A stretch of DNA of 37,906 nt from Holophagaceae bacterium (lineage in GTDB: Bacteria; Acidobacteriota; Holophagae; Holophagales; Holophagaceae), in assembly GCA_003165415.1 (NCBI GenBank), contig PLUC01000051.1:1-37906 (forward strand). The letters run 5' to 3'. The first letter of the stretch is position 1. Each line of letters opens with the position of its first letter. The position numbers and the translations under genes are program-made. Below the pieces are notes generated by a model. That model worked only from the letters and a program-made list of their open reading frames with translations, was not told where the DNA came from and searched no databases. Of this stretch, positions 19,853-26,161 are shown piece by piece.

Positions 19853-20983
19853 TCAGACCAGCCCAATGAACCGCCACCATGTGAGCGCGGTCACGGCCCA
19901 CAGGATCCAGGAGGCGAGCCCCAGCAGCACCGAGGACTTGATCTGGTTCTCCACCGTATACTAGCCGCCGCCGTAGATGATGATGTTGCCCATGGTGTTG
20001 AACGGGAAAAAGAGGGCGTAGGCCATCAGGATGGCCATGGGCAGGCAGAAGCCGGTGAGGTCGAAATGGAGCGCCTGGGCGATGCCGATGTAGATGGGGA
20101 TCATCACCCCGGCCATGGCGGTGGTGGTGGACCAGATGGCGTGGGAGAAGATGGTGAAGCCCATGAGCAGGATCAGCAGCGGGAGCATCGGCAGGGTCTG
20201 CACCCCCAGGCCGTTGAGGGCGGCCCGGATGATCCACTCGAACGCCCTGGTCTTGGTCAGCACGTCCGAGAGGGTGATCACGCCGCCGAAATAGATGAAC
20301 AGCTCCCAGGGGATCAGCTTCTCGGTCTGCTTCCATTCCAGCACGCCGATCTTCGGGGCGAAGATCATCATCGACGCCCCGAACGCCACCATGGTGGAGT
20401 TGAAGCCGTGGTAGAAGTCGGTGGACCAGAGGGTCAGGGCCACCAGAAACCAGAAGATCGCCTTCTTCTCCTGCCCGGTCATGGGGCCCATGGCCGCCAG
20501 TTCTCCGTTGATGTAGCCCATGCCGCCGGGGATCTCCTTCATCTCGGGGGGGAACATCCTCAGGCACAGCCACCCGGTGAACAGCAGGATGAGCAGGTTG
20601 GTGGGCAGGGCCGCCAGCGCCCAGAAGCCCCAGGTGAGCTTGCTTGAAACGCCCACGGCGGTGAGGATCATGCCGATGGCGATGGGGTTGGGGATGGTGC
20701 CGGTGAGGAAGGCCGAGCCGGTGATGTTGCCGGCGAAGGTCTCGGACAGGCCCAGGGCGCGGCCGAAGTTGCTCTTGCCCGGCTCGATCTTGTAGGCCTG
20801 GCCGATGCCCTGGATGATGGGCAGCATCGCGGCCATGCGCGCGGTGTTGGAAGGGGTCAGGGGGGCCAGCACCAGGTTGGCGACCATGGAGGCACCCACC
20901 GCGAAGCTGGCGTCGCGCACCAGCCAGCCGCCCTTCACCGTCCCCGCCGCGTTGCCGACCCAGAAATAGAGCACCGTGACCAC
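19853..20983 (-). pseudogene. DASS/CitT-type anion:sodium symporter, truncated and interrupted by amber codon
   Basis: The visible protein contains many membrane helices and the DASS landmark APLTPSNTAR, plus TGTIPNPIAIGM and FSHAIWSTTTAMAGVMIP. The reading frame ends at TAG (19961-19963) after NIIIYGGG. The same frame then continues YTVENQIKSSVLLGLASWILWAVTALTWWRFIGLV to a TGA at 19853, exactly the C-terminal helix expected for the family. This shows the TAG replaces a sense codon, probably Tyr. At the 5' end, about 100-150 residues of the usual N-terminus are absent. The frame opens from a GTG with no Shine-Dalgarno, and upstream DNA does not encode the missing part. The transporter is therefore probably non-functional. 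Confidence 0.8.
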
Positions 20984-21186
20984 GAAGAAGCCGGGAATGG
21001 TATGACTGGGTTTGGATTCCGTACCTTACCAACAGGCCAAAGCGGCTGTCCAGGGGTATGCTGCTGCATTCCAGCGTTGCAACACCTTGGGCAGGAGAGC
21101 GGCTGACCCAGCAGAAAAAAGGGGAGGGAGATGAAACCTCCATTGAGATCCGGGCATTCCTCATGAACTGAAAAGGTGGGGATGTC

Positions 21187-22701
21187 TTGAAAAGAGCAAG
21201 CAGAGGTCTGGCCTTCGTTCTCCTGGTTTCCGCCGGGCTCGCGGCCGGTGAGTTCAGTCTCAGTGAAGCCATCCAGACCGCCCTCCAGAACAACCTCCAG
21301 GTGACCATCGCCCGGCAGGACCGGGAGGAGGTCCGGGCCGAGGCTCGAAGCCAGGAGGGCGCCTTCGACTGGACCCTGGGCGCCGACGCCCAGGCCGGCC
21401 GGCTGCAGTCCTTCGCCCCCCAGGCCCAGACCCTGGGGCCCGAACTGCCGCAGACCACGGTCACCAGCATCCGCACCTTCACCGGCAGCCTGAACCGGCT
21501 GTTCCCCTGGGGCGGCACCTTCGCCTTCAAGTACGCCCCCGGCTACAACCATGCCCGCACCACCTCGCCCGGCGGCCCAGACTACAACGGCAACCCGGTG
21601 CCGCCCTACGCCTTCGCCACCCCGAACCCGTACGGCGGCACCCTGAGCGCCACCTATACCCAGAGCCTGCTGCGGGGCTTCGGCAAGGTCCCCACCACCG
21701 CCAACCTGGTGGTGGCGCGCATGCAGGCGGAAGCGGCCGACCACACGTTCCGCCTCGCCATCATCAGACTGGTGGCGGACACCGAGACCCAGTACTGGGA
21801 CCTGGTCTGCGCCAACCGGAACCTGGCCAACAAGCGCCTGGCCCTGGAACTGGCCCAGAAGCACCTCCAGGAGAACACCCTCCGGGTGCGCCTGGGCGCC
21901 ATGGCCGCCATCGAGGTCATCTCGGCGGAATCCCAGGTGGCCAGGGCCGAGCAGGACATCATCGCCGCCGAGGCCCAGGCGCAGAACGCCAGGGACATCC
22001 TGCTGCGGGCCCTCTACCCCGAAGCCGGACACCCGGCGGCGCTGGAGCCCACCGACGATCCCGTCCTGGGCCGCCAGCGCCCGGACGAGGCCGCCGCTGT
22101 CCAGCGGGCCCTGCGCTGCCGGCTGGAACTGCAGTCCGCCAGGATCGGCCGGGAGACGGCCCAGGTGCGGGAGCGGGCGGCGGCCGACCGGGTCCGGCCC
22201 AAGCTGGACGCCTTCGTGCAGTACGACGGCGCCAGCAACAACTACGGCAGCCCGGGACCAGTGAACGGCGACCTGGCCGGCTTCCGGAACCCCGGCTACA
22301 CCTTGGGCCTGTCCTTCGCTCTGCCCCTCCAGAACCGCGAGGCCAGGGGCCGGCACGCCGCCGCCCGGGCCCATCTCAGCGCCCAGGAGCTGCGGCTGCG
22401 GGACCAGGAACTGAGCGTCGCCCTGGAGGTGCGCAAGGCGCTGCGGGATGTGGAAGCCGCCGAGAAGGGGGTGCAGGCCTCCGCCAAGACCCGCCATTTC
22501 CAGGAAAAGAGCCTGGAGGGGGAGCGGACGAAACTCGAGCACGGCCTGTCCACCAGCTTCACCGTGCTGCAGGTCATGACCAGCCTGGAGGAGGCCCGCA
22601 GCGCCGAGCTCAAGGCCCAGATCCACTACGCCAAGGCGGTCACGACCATGGAGGTGGCCCAGGGGATCCTGCTGGAGGCCCGGAACCTTACAGTGAAATA
22701 G
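21187..22701 (+). CDS. TolC-family outer membrane efflux protein
   Basis: A 504-residue protein starting with TTG at 21187. The resulting signal peptide is (M)KRASRGLAFVLLVSAGLAAGEFSL, and no ATG gives a signal sequence. The mature part begins SEAIQTALQNNLQVTIARQDREEV, the typical OEP opening. It contains the duplicated helical hairpins of the family (ALELAQKHLQENTLRVRLGAMAAIEVISAESQVARAEQDI, and LEVRKALRDVEAAEKGVQ). It would trimerise to form the outer-membrane channel and periplasmic tunnel of an export system. The inner-membrane partner is not adjacent, although an ABC exporter with its own NodT channel lies 4 kb downstream. Its 3' end overlaps oxyR by 14 bp (convergent). Confidence 0.9.
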   Translation: MKRASRGLAFVLLVSAGLAAGEFSLSEAIQTALQNNLQVTIARQDREEVRAEARSQEGAFDWTLGADAQAGRLQSFAPQAQTLGPELPQTTVTSIRTFTGSLNRLFPWGGTFAFKYAPGYNHARTTSPGGPDYNGNPVPPYAFATPNPYGGTLSATYTQSLLRGFGKVPTTANLVVARMQAEAADHTFRLAIIRLVADTETQYWDLVCANRNLANKRLALELAQKHLQENTLRVRLGAMAAIEVISAESQVARAEQDIIAAEAQAQNARDILLRALYPEAGHPAALEPTDDPVLGRQRPDEAAAVQRALRCRLELQSARIGRETAQVRERAAADRVRPKLDAFVQYDGASNNYGSPGPVNGDLAGFRNPGYTLGLSFALPLQNREARGRHAAARAHLSAQELRLRDQELSVALEVRKALRDVEAAEKGVQASAKTRHFQEKSLEGERTKLEHGLSTSFTVLQVMTSLEEARSAELKAQIHYAKAVTTMEVAQGILLEARNLTVK

Positions 22702-23602
22702 CCCCGGGCCAGGCGGCCCGCAGCTCCCCGGCGAAGGTCGCCAGCGCCCCGGCCAGGGGCGAGCCGCCGCGCCAGGCCAGGACCAGCTGCCGTCCGGGCA
22801 CGGGCGGGGCGAAGGGACGCAGCACCAGGCTGGCCCGGGTCCGCTCCATGGGCGCGCACAGGGCGGGCAGCAGGGTCAGGCCCATGCCCGCGGCCACCAT
22901 CTGCATCAGCGTGGGCAGGCTGGATGCCCGGAAATCCGCCTCCCGCGCGCCGGCCTTGGCGCAGATTGCCAGGGCCTGGCCGCGCAGGCAGTGGCCGTCC
23001 TCCAGCAGCAGCAGCGGGGCCTGCTCCAGGTCCCGCAGGGCGATCCTGCGCTTGCGCGCCAGCGGGTGGCCCAGGGGCGCCGCCAGCAGGAAGGGGTCCT
23101 CGGCCAGGGGCGCCCGCGACAGCGTGCCCAGGTCGGGCACCTCGGCCAGGATCGCCGCCTCCAGCCCCCCGGCCAGCAGTTCCCGCACCAGCACCGGGGT
23201 GCGCTCTTCCCGCAGCAGCAGCCGCAGGTCGGGGTGGGCCCGGTGGACCCCGGGCAGGATCTCCGGCAGCAGGTACGGGGCCACGGTGGGGATGAGGCCC
23301 AGGCGCCAGTTGCCGCGGAACGGGTCGGAAAGCAGCCGGGCGGCGGCCAGCAGGTCCTCCGCCTCCCGCAGCACCCGTCGGGCCCGGGCCACCACGAGCT
23401 CGCCGGCGGGGGTCAGCAGCACCCGGCGCTGGTTGCGCTCGAACAGCCGGACTCCCAGCACCGCCTCCGCCTGCTGGATCTGGGCGCTCAGCGCGGGCTG
23501 GGACACATGGGCCCGCTCCGCCGCCCGGTGGAAGCCCAGGGTGTCGGCCAGGGCGACCAGGTACTCCAGTTGGCGGAAGGTGAGGTCCGAAGGGCGGGGC
23601 AT
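22688..23602 (-). CDS. oxyR: Peroxide-responsive LysR-type regulator OxyR
   Basis: A 304-residue LysR protein. The helix-turn-helix lies in FRQLEYLVALADTLGFHRAAERAHVSQPALSAQIQQAEAVLG. The effector domain contains LLLEDGHCLRGQALAIC, with C205 and C214 nine residues apart, as the redox cysteines of Escherichia coli OxyR (199/208). This makes the peroxide-sensor assignment strong: H2O2 forms a disulphide that switches DNA binding. It is divergent from rubrerythrin, and the shared 145-bp gap contains a near-perfect OxyR site. That suggests control of the operon and of itself. Confidence 0.95.
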   Translation of the reverse strand: MPRPSDLTFRQLEYLVALADTLGFHRAAERAHVSQPALSAQIQQAEAVLGVRLFERNQRRVLLTPAGELVVARARRVLREAEDLLAAARLLSDPFRGNWRLGLIPTVAPYLLPEILPGVHRAHPDLRLLLREERTPVLVRELLAGGLEAAILAEVPDLGTLSRAPLAEDPFLLAAPLGHPLARKRRIALRDLEQAPLLLLEDGHCLRGQALAICAKAGAREADFRASSLPTLMQMVAAGMGLTLLPALCAPMERTRASLVLRPFAPPVPGRQLVLAWRGGSPLAGALATFAGELRAAWPGAISL

Positions 23603-23657: not shown

Positions 23658-23694
23658 ATAGGGTTATCCTATCAACCTGATCAAGAAGAAGTAT
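23658..23694. promoter_or_regulatory. OxyR-type binding site (ATAG-N7-CTAT tetrad)
   Basis: The 37-bp stretch reads ATAG-N7-CTAT-N7-ATCA-N7-GTAT. The first pair is a perfect match to the OxyR consensus and the third and fourth tetrads match at 2/4 and 3/4, all with exact N7 spacing. The left half is also a GATAGG-N5-CCTATC palindrome. A TATTAT -10 element (23715-23720) puts the site next to the -35 position of the rubrerythrin promoter, as expected for activation. It lies 56 bp upstream of oxyR. Confidence 0.8.
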
Positions 23695-23747
23695 CAACGG
23701 CTTGTCATTAGGAATATTATGATGTCCTTGCTTCTGAGGAGCGCCTT

Positions 23748-24167
23748 ATGCCAAACCTTAAAGGAACCAAGACCCACCAGAACCTGAAGGACGCCTTCGC
23801 CGGCGAATCCCAGGCCAACCGCCGCTACCTGTACTTCGCCAAGGTGGCCGACATCGAGGGCTACCCCGAAGTGGCTGGCAACTTCAAGGAGACCGCGGAC
23901 GGCGAGACCGGCCACGCCCACGGCCACCTGGACTACCTGAAGGGCGTCGGTGATCCCGCCACCGGCCTGCCCATCGGCGACACCGCCCTCAACCTCAAGG
24001 CCGCCATCGCCGGCGAGACCCACGAGTACACCGACATGTACCCCGGCATGGCCAAGAACGCCCGGGAGGAGGGCTTCGGCGAAATCGCCGACTGGTTCGA
24101 GACCCTGGCCAAGGCCGAGAAGAGCCACGCCGGCCGCTTCCAGAAGATGCTGGACAGCATCGGCTGA
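23748..24167 (+). CDS. Rubrerythrin-type diiron protein lacking the rubredoxin domain
   Basis: A 139-residue ferritin-like four-helix protein with the paired Glu/His ligand motifs of rubrerythrins: [40 protein letters not shown] and [11 protein letters not shown]. The C-terminal rubredoxin (CxxC...CxxC) module of classical rubrerythrin is missing; the protein ends shortly after the last helix. Rubrerythrins reduce hydrogen peroxide at the diiron site. Without the rubredoxin domain, electrons must come from another protein, and the Fe-S protein encoded next is the natural candidate. Shine-Dalgarno GAGGAG precedes ATG 23748. The promoter carries the OxyR-type site. Confidence 0.94.
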
Positions 24168-24182
24168 GTGGAGAGGGCAGCC

Positions 24183-25589
24183 ATGGCCGAGCACGACGTT
24201 CCCCCCGGCGATCCCGGGCGCGCGCCCACCACTCCGGGCCACCGGATCAGCTACCTCGCGGGGCCGGCCACCGTCTACGACCCCGCCGATCCCCGCTACT
24301 GGGACGAGGCGCTGCTCCAGGACGAGGTGGAACGGGTCTTCGAGATCTGCCATGGCTGCCGCATGTGCTTCAAGTACTGCGACGCGTTTCCCGGCCTGTT
24401 CGCGCTGCTGGACGACCAGCACCACGGCGATGTGCGCGCCCTGTCCCGGGAGGAGCGCGACGGGGTGCTGGACGCCTGTTTCCAGTGCAAGCTGTGCGAA
24501 GTGCAGTGCCCCTACACCCCCCGGGAGGGCCATGCCTTCGCCCTGGATTTCCCCAAGCTGGTGCACCGCCACCAGGCGGTGCGCCGCAAGCGCGAGGGCG
24601 GCAGCCTGCGCGACAGGGTCCTGGGCGACCCGGACCTGGCCGGGCGCATGGCCCGGGCCAGCTTCGGCTTGGCCAACACCCTGAACCGGGTAACGTTGCA
24701 TCGCTGGTTCATGGACAAGCTGCTGGGGGTGCACCCCCAGGCGCACCTGCCGGCGTTCGCCAGCACCACCTTCGAGACCTGGGCTGACAAGAGCGGCTAC
24801 ATGGCCGATCAGCCGGGTATGGAGGCGGTGCTGTTCCAGACCTGCTTCGTGCAGAACAACGACCCCCAGATCGGCAAGGACACCCTTGAGGTGCTCTGGA
24901 AGAACGGCTGCCGAGCCGGCTGCGTGCGCGGGCTGCAGTGCTGCGGCATGCCGGCCTGGGAGCACGGCGATCTGGACAGCCTGCGCAAGCAGGCCAAGGC
25001 CAACCTGGACGCGCTCATGCCGCACGTGGAGTCCGGGTCCAAGGTCCTGGTGATCAACCCCACCTGCTCCATGATGCTGCGGCGGGAGTATCCCGAGCTG
25101 CTGGACGGCGCCGACCGGGAGCGGGCCAGGCGCCTGGCGGCGGCGGTGCGGGACCCGGGCGAGTTCCTCTGGTCCATCCGCAACGAGGCCCGGGCCAACT
25201 GGAACTTCCTGTCCAGCCCCGGCCCGGTGGCGTACCACGCCCCCTGCCACCTGCGCACCCAGTCGGTGGGCTTCAAGGGCCGCGATCTGCTGCGCAAGAT
25301 CCCCGGGGTCACCATCCAGTCGGTGCTGGAATGCTGCGGCCACGACGGCACCTACGCCCTGAAATCGGAAAGCTACGAGGACGCCAGGCGCATCGGCGCC
25401 AAGGCCTTCCAGGGCATGGCGGCGGTGGAGGACGCCCAGGTGTGGGCCACCGAATGCCCGCTGGCGGCCCTGCAGTTTGAGCAGCACGCCGGCCACAAGG
25501 CCCTGCACCCCATGACCATCCTGGCCCGGGCCTACCGCTCGGACGGATTTCCCACTCCAATCCCTCACGAGGGCCCCCACGAAGGCTGA
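24183..25589 (+). CDS. (Fe-S)-binding oxidoreductase, heterodisulfide-reductase/GlpC-like
   Basis: The ATG at 24183 ([14 protein letters not shown]) is preferred over the track start at 24168, giving 468 residues. Two ferredoxin-type motifs lie near residues 57-110: [11 protein letters not shown] and [13 protein letters not shown], with the dispersed fourth cysteines needed for two [4Fe-4S] clusters. The rest has two CCG-type domains ([13 protein letters not shown] and [15 protein letters not shown]) plus HAPCHLR, as in GlpC and HdrB/D proteins. It probably delivers electrons to the preceding rubrerythrin. The gene starts 15 bp after rubrerythrin. From memory, rubrerythrin, this protein and DUF3501 form a recurrent gene trio in aerobic bacteria. 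Confidence 0.9.
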
Positions 25590-25591
25590 AC

Positions 25592-26161
25592 ATGGAACCC
25601 CTGGAACGCAAAGACATCCTGGACTTCATGACCTACTACGAGCAGCGCGAGGGTATCCGCGCCTCGGCCATGGCCGCCAAGGCCCTGCGCCGGGTGCACC
25701 TGGGCGAGCACCTCACCTTCCTGTTCGAGAACCGGGAGACCATCCGCTACCAGGTGCTGGAGATGGTGCGGGTGGAGCAGATGGTGCGGGAAGCGGACAT
25801 CCGGCACGAGCTGGACACATACAACGAAGTGCTCGGGGGCGAGGGGGAGCTGGGCTGCACCCTGCTCATCGAGATTCCCGACGAGCAGGAGCGGGCGGAG
25901 CTGCTGCGCCGCTGGCGCGATCTGCCGGACCACATCTACCTGGTTTGCACCGACGGCACGCGGATCAAGGCCGGCTTCGATCCGGGGCAGATGAGCGAGG
26001 ACAAGCTCTCCTCGGTGCAGTTCCTCAAGTTCCGGGTGGGCAGCCGCGTCCCGTGCGCGCTCTGCTCGGACCTGCCGGACCTGTGCGCTGAAGCGGTCCT
26101 GGACGACGCCACCCGGCAGGCGCTCCTGGCCGATCTCGGGGGCTGCTGGGTTCCATCGTAA
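25592..26161 (+). CDS. DUF3501 family protein
   Basis: A 189-residue protein starting 2 bp after the Fe-S gene: [24 protein letters not shown], then [45 protein letters not shown]. These are recognisable DUF3501 features. A C-terminal pair of cysteines ([11 protein letters not shown]) could bind metal. The biochemical function is unknown. Its constant association with rubrerythrin and the Fe-S protein points to peroxide or oxygen defence. All three genes are tightly packed, so one OxyR-regulated operon is likely. Confidence 0.88.

Follow-up and report, generated by a model that had tools for sequence, protein, structure and literature searches.

The window analyzed here, the whole 37,906-nucleotide contig of a Holophagaceae bacterium, raises the question of what switches on an operon for a rubrerythrin (Rbr), an Fe-S protein (RFO), and a DUF3501 protein, and of how that rubrerythrin might obtain its electrons. 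The features on which the argument turns are as follows.

22688 to 23602, minus strand: oxyR, an OxyR-type LysR regulator of 304 residues with redox Cys205/Cys214 (PF00126 and PF03466; NF008361; PDB matches; GHC-x8-C)
23658 to 23694, plus strand: predicted OxyR operator made up of four tetrads at 7-nt spacing (13/16 match; kept in five relatives with varying spacers)
23692 to 23720, plus strand: putative rbr promoter, read from the letters
23736 to 23741, plus strand: predicted rbr ribosome-binding site GAGGAG (GAGGAG kept in relatives)
23748 to 24167, plus strand: rbr, an aerobic-type rubrerythrin with a ferritin-like domain only (PF02915; full-length matches to 4di0 and sulerythrin 1j30)
24168 to 25589, plus strand: RFO, an Fe-S protein with CCG domains (two invariant CxxCxxCxxxC sets; two CCG domains; fold matches)
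25592 to 26161, plus strand: DUF3501 protein (PF12007, 166.9 bits against a cut-off of 25)

We consider it likely, with a probability of about 0.8, that OxyR controls these three genes, which would place an aerobic-type rubrerythrin system under direct peroxide control. The operon itself is already known and not new. The aerobic-type rubrerythrin lineage, consisting of Rbr, RFO, and DUF3501, was defined in 2016 by Cardenas, Quatrini and Holmes, who named RFO and proposed that it compensates for the missing rubredoxin domain and supplies electrons (PMC5114695). The trio in the window resembles that system in its gene set, its domains, its rubredoxin-less Rbr, its GlpC-related RFO, and its DUF3501 protein, and the order rbr-RFO-DUF3501 is conserved. 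Unlike the published description, which leaves OxyR unmentioned, the locus in the window contains a divergent OxyR and an operator. The new part is this wiring, in which a dedicated OxyR clade is linked to the trio: a known system with a real and conserved variation in its regulation. In the open-licence literature, we found no account of the cassette being under OxyR control. The trio has also been reported from the mitochondria of some protists.

The rubrerythrin consists of 139 residues, none of them cysteine, and PF02915 spans the entire protein, in agreement with the initial annotation of a rubrerythrin that lacks its rubredoxin domain. Its match to the classical rubrerythrin model NF045767 (141 bits, below the cut-off of 200) stops at profile position 145 of 194, and the C-terminal rubredoxin domain is absent. 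The best structural matches, both over the full length, are Rbr from Burkholderia pseudomallei and sulerythrin. The di-iron ligands E20, E53, H56, E90, E93, E124, and H127 are conserved at 0.99-1.00 across 132 sequences, and the di-iron protein would reduce H2O2 to water and perhaps act on organic peroxides as well. A second rbr gene of the genome (G000:C158:27173-27632; L103 5123-5587, minus strand) encodes a stand-alone aerobic-type protein that is 86% identical; it has a similar 46-bp leader, with no OxyR site and no adjoining RFO or DUF3501 gene.

The description of the second gene product as a two-cluster Fe-S protein was correct in one respect, as two CxxCxxCxxxC sets are present, but RFO is more than a two-cluster ferredoxin in that CCG/HdrB-like domains, matched by PF02754 in two stretches, lie beside the clusters. 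All eight ferredoxin-type cysteines and the CCG cysteines C226, C258, C259, C300, C360, C389, and C430 are kept in essentially all of the 125 sequences compared. The best NCBIfam model is GlpC, with a score below its cut-off, and a profile search matches HdrB and an EtfD-like reductase. A single-sequence search of the PDB returned no match, whereas the fold of the predicted structure (pLDDT 92.7) matches those of LutA, EtfD, and HdrB. These three relatives serve in electron transfer among flavin enzymes, quinones, or disulfides, which makes RFO a plausible carrier and implies that its electron source must be sought outside the operon. RFO would most likely hand on electrons from quinone, electron-transferring flavoprotein (ETF), or another flavin-linked pool. 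The locus had been characterized in the initial annotation as a self-contained peroxide reductase system; this is not supported, for the operon encodes neither a flavin reductase nor an NAD(P)H reductase, and the only donor we found tested for this lineage is NADPH with ferredoxin-NADP reductase (FNR).

That donor bears on a competing account of electron supply, in which ferredoxin/FNR or a separate rubredoxin reduces Rbr and both RFO and DUF3501 are otherwise used, for example in metal-site repair or loading. Ferriperoxin (Fpx) of Hydrogenobacter thermophilus, which belongs to the same rubredoxin-less Rbr lineage, is a peroxidase that acts on both H2O2 and organic peroxides and is needed for aerobic growth; in vitro, NADPH and FNR alone suffice for its activity (PMC3317640). 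Fpx differs from the present system in being NADPH/FNR-reduced, in having its RFO gene elsewhere (PMC5114695), and in that OxyR is unmentioned for it (PMC3317640). In further agreement with such an account, the genome encodes one rubredoxin (contig C122), and Thermoproteales possess Rbr and DUF3501 but lack RFO (PMC5114695). Against it stand the near-perfect co-location of RFO with aerobic-type Rbr across several phyla and the cofactor set of RFO, which is that of an electron carrier, with the eight ferredoxin-type and main CCG cysteines invariant. We regard reduction without RFO as possible but doubtful, and somewhat favor an electron path to Rbr through RFO, as its sequence and modeled fold suggest.

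The third gene encodes a DUF3501 protein, as had been proposed. Its model (pLDDT 95.4) has only one convincing fold match, 3fjv from B. pseudomallei, and since this structure belongs to the DUF3501 family itself, the fold gives no indication of function. The invariant positions of the protein include several charged residues (R19, R33, E46, E57, E62, and E73), and no cysteine is conserved across the compared sequences. DUF3501 is therefore unlikely to carry electrons via Fe-S ligands of its own, and our guess is that it would act as an assembly or docking factor rather than as an electron carrier. Our literature search found no established physiological electron donor for aerobic-type Rbr and no established role for DUF3501.

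The divergent gene encodes a regulator with both LysR domains, the DNA-binding PF00126 and the effector PF03466, and its best PDB matches are OxyR structures. The best NCBIfam model is OxyR (NF008361), at 270.6 bits, and the next distinct regulator family, CynR, follows at 151.9 bits. Because the OxyR score lies under the curated cut-off of 329, we class the protein as OxyR-type only and not as an NF008361 equivalog; two orthologs from another genus also score below the cut-off (260-264 bits). Both redox cysteines noted in the initial annotation are indeed present: C205 and C214, which correspond to the Escherichia coli C199/C208 pair, form a GHC-x8-C motif that is invariant in the 24 OxyRs compared. 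This regulator is the only OxyR-like protein of the genome, and the next LysR protein is 32% identical.

Between the two genes, ATAG-N7-CTAT-N7-ATCA-N7-GTAT occupies exactly positions 23658-23694, and the exact tetrad spacing first read there stands. Scored against ATAG/CTAT/ATAG/CTAT with N7 spacers, the site matches 13 of the 16 specified letters. The third tetrad, ATCA, is degenerate (ATC-like versus ATAG) and accounts for two of the three mismatches. A scan of the window found one match to the OxyR pattern, and 100 shuffles gave none. When the 145-bp intergenic region (45% GC) was shuffled with dinucleotides preserved, at least 13/16 was reached in 26 of 20,000 shuffles; a 13/16 match is by itself good but not overwhelming. 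Across the 4.84-Mb genome, the pattern occurs with at most three mismatches at only two places, each of which appears on both strands, and one of these is the site described here. A reversed control pattern had no place with at most three mismatches in the whole genome. The other genomic match, on contig C79, was dismissed because it runs across the 3′ end of an ABC gene.

The putative rbr promoter has a very poor −35 element (TATCAA, 23692-23697), which the last tetrad partly covers, and a −10 element of TATTAT (23715-23720). A predicted −35 was originally placed next to the operator, but a scan for consensus sigma-70 promoters finds none and so does not support that element as such. In the mechanism we propose, H2O2 would drive formation of the Cys205-Cys214 disulfide, upon which OxyR would grip all four tetrads, recruit RNA polymerase to the otherwise weak rbr promoter, and repress its own divergent gene.

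Among an initial sample of 56 related loci, the trio was present in nearly every locus and an adjacent OxyR in none; the other OxyRs of the family mostly adjoin ahpC. The one-off linkage that these loci suggested was rejected when a wider draw of the phylum yielded five genomes, from a different genus within the family, whose divergent OxyR is 75-77% identical. In these five, a 13/16 site lies at −89 from rbr, and that of the window lies at −90. An alignment of the six genomes, which span two genera, shows ATAG, CTAT, and GTAT to be invariant and the first N7 spacer to be without any conserved column. Invariant columns make up 14/16 of the tetrad positions versus 8/21 of the spacer positions (Fisher p 0.003, the five relatives being one clade). 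Conservation in relatives, the point on which the initial annotation had staked its reading, is what we observe, in that the tetrads are kept across genera while the spacers vary, and a chance match is rejected on account of this conserved footprint; the operator appears to be functional.

The trio-linked OxyRs form one clade (100/99), sister to OxyRs that are mostly divergent to ahpC. The same motif occurs, at 12-14/16, in several promoters beside the other OxyRs of the family, where it serves as a positive control. The divergent OxyR-ahpC pairs of the family (L093-L098) share with the locus in the window the OxyR cysteines, a tetrad operator in several cases, and a divergently encoded peroxide-reducing enzyme. 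They differ in that their target is a peroxiredoxin and their OxyRs are 47-54% identical and fall in the sister clade. A tree built from the concatenated trio does not firmly place the window's trio as sister to the five OxyR-linked trios; that the trio behind a given regulator arose once is supported there for a NorR-like group only (95/95), and for OxyR itself the support comes from its own clade.

Could the operator instead serve mainly for autoregulation of oxyR, with the trio a mere neighbor that is constitutive or under another signal? With 55 bp between it and the oxyR start and 53 bp between it and the rbr start, the site could serve either gene, and same-genus relatives carry the trio without an adjoining OxyR. 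The distance from site to rbr is nevertheless held within one base, and the rbr-side edge of the operator is conserved in relatives (AAGAAGTATC), with the half of the intergenic region nearer to oxyR less so. Gammaproteobacteria, moreover, have sites before rbr where oxyR is not divergent. In view of these observations, a site that serves mainly for autoregulation seems quite improbable.

The gammaproteobacterial sites extend the case for OxyR control of the trio. Of 41 trio promoters from this group, nine reach at least 12/16, with values of up to 15/16, and three of these have a neighboring oxyR; none of 78 trio promoters outside the window's group and the Gammaproteobacteria reaches 12/16. 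Because gammaproteobacterial trio promoters also carry sites, OxyR control of the cassette probably arose more than once, the gammaproteobacterial case apparently being a separate recruitment of OxyR. Sites of 13-15/16 are found at L218, L227, L237, L232, L075, and L076, three of which have a same-strand oxyR just upstream.

Three orthologous genes of B. pseudomallei, bpss1837-1839, are all upregulated by about 3.3 log2 units after 10 min of H2O2, an induction reported to be sigma-E dependent (PMC4175613). They resemble the trio in the window in being strongly H2O2-induced, and their products are represented by the structures 4di0 (Rbr) and 3fjv (DUF3501), but an OxyR link has not been reported for them.

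A divergent NorR-like sigma-54 activator (379 bits to the NorR model, below its cut-off of 476) takes the place of OxyR in same-genus genomes and in two from the OxyR-linked genus. As same-genus genomes pair the trio with another regulator, the operon can do without OxyR control. A −24/−12-like promoter precedes rbr in all five NorR-like-linked loci of the family and is absent from OxyR-linked loci, and TTTCGGTG repeats occur in four of the five. These features suggest that NorR-like-linked trios respond to another signal, possibly nitric oxide. NorR-like-linked trio loci are L026-L028, L150, and L152, together with L052 from another phylum. Many Acidobacteriota and Myxococcota carry, immediately upstream of rbr and in the same orientation, a gene of the Fur/PerR type, which looks like another way of placing the trio under peroxide or iron control; such loci include L044, L061, L065, L154, L156-L158, L160, L161, and others. 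The genome studied here encodes two Fur-family proteins. In three genomes, dnaE is divergent to the trio, with no recognized regulator.

This diversity enters a broader reading, in which the trio would be a respiratory peroxide reductase: RFO would take quinone or ETF electrons to Rbr, DUF3501 would dock the partners, and OxyR would switch the system on, the sensor of one cassette having been swapped among OxyR, NorR-like, and Fur/PerR-type regulators within family and phylum. As a whole we hold that reading to be unlikely. That the contig is a contaminant of the metagenome-assembled genome, or its linkage an assembly artifact, is largely refuted and extremely improbable: the genome bin is 7.4% contaminated and a different regulator accompanies the trio in same-genus genomes, but other genes of the contig best match same-genus genomes (acyl-CoA synthetase and PFK, 79-86% nucleotide identity), and the OxyR-trio arrangement recurs in five independent assemblies.

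With OxyR as the likely regulator of the trio, the conserved operator would link the cassette specifically to H2O2. Judged by the DUF3501 marker, which was detected in 118 of 274 genomes sampled from one gammaproteobacterial class and in 52 of 396 from the window's phylum, aerobic-type rubrerythrins are widespread, and the occurrence of the same cassette under unrelated sensors offers natural comparisons for testing the roles of RFO and DUF3501. As for other peroxide defenses, a search with PF00199 found no catalase of that family in the draft genome, a provisional absence at 94% completeness, and the AhpC homolog of the genome shares just 47% identity with the AhpC that is OxyR-linked in relatives. 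Elsewhere in the window, a transporter gene on the minus strand (19961-21100) opens only at an internal GTG (20983); further upstream, a different frame holds what could plausibly be its N-terminus, possibly reflecting a frameshift or an assembly error.
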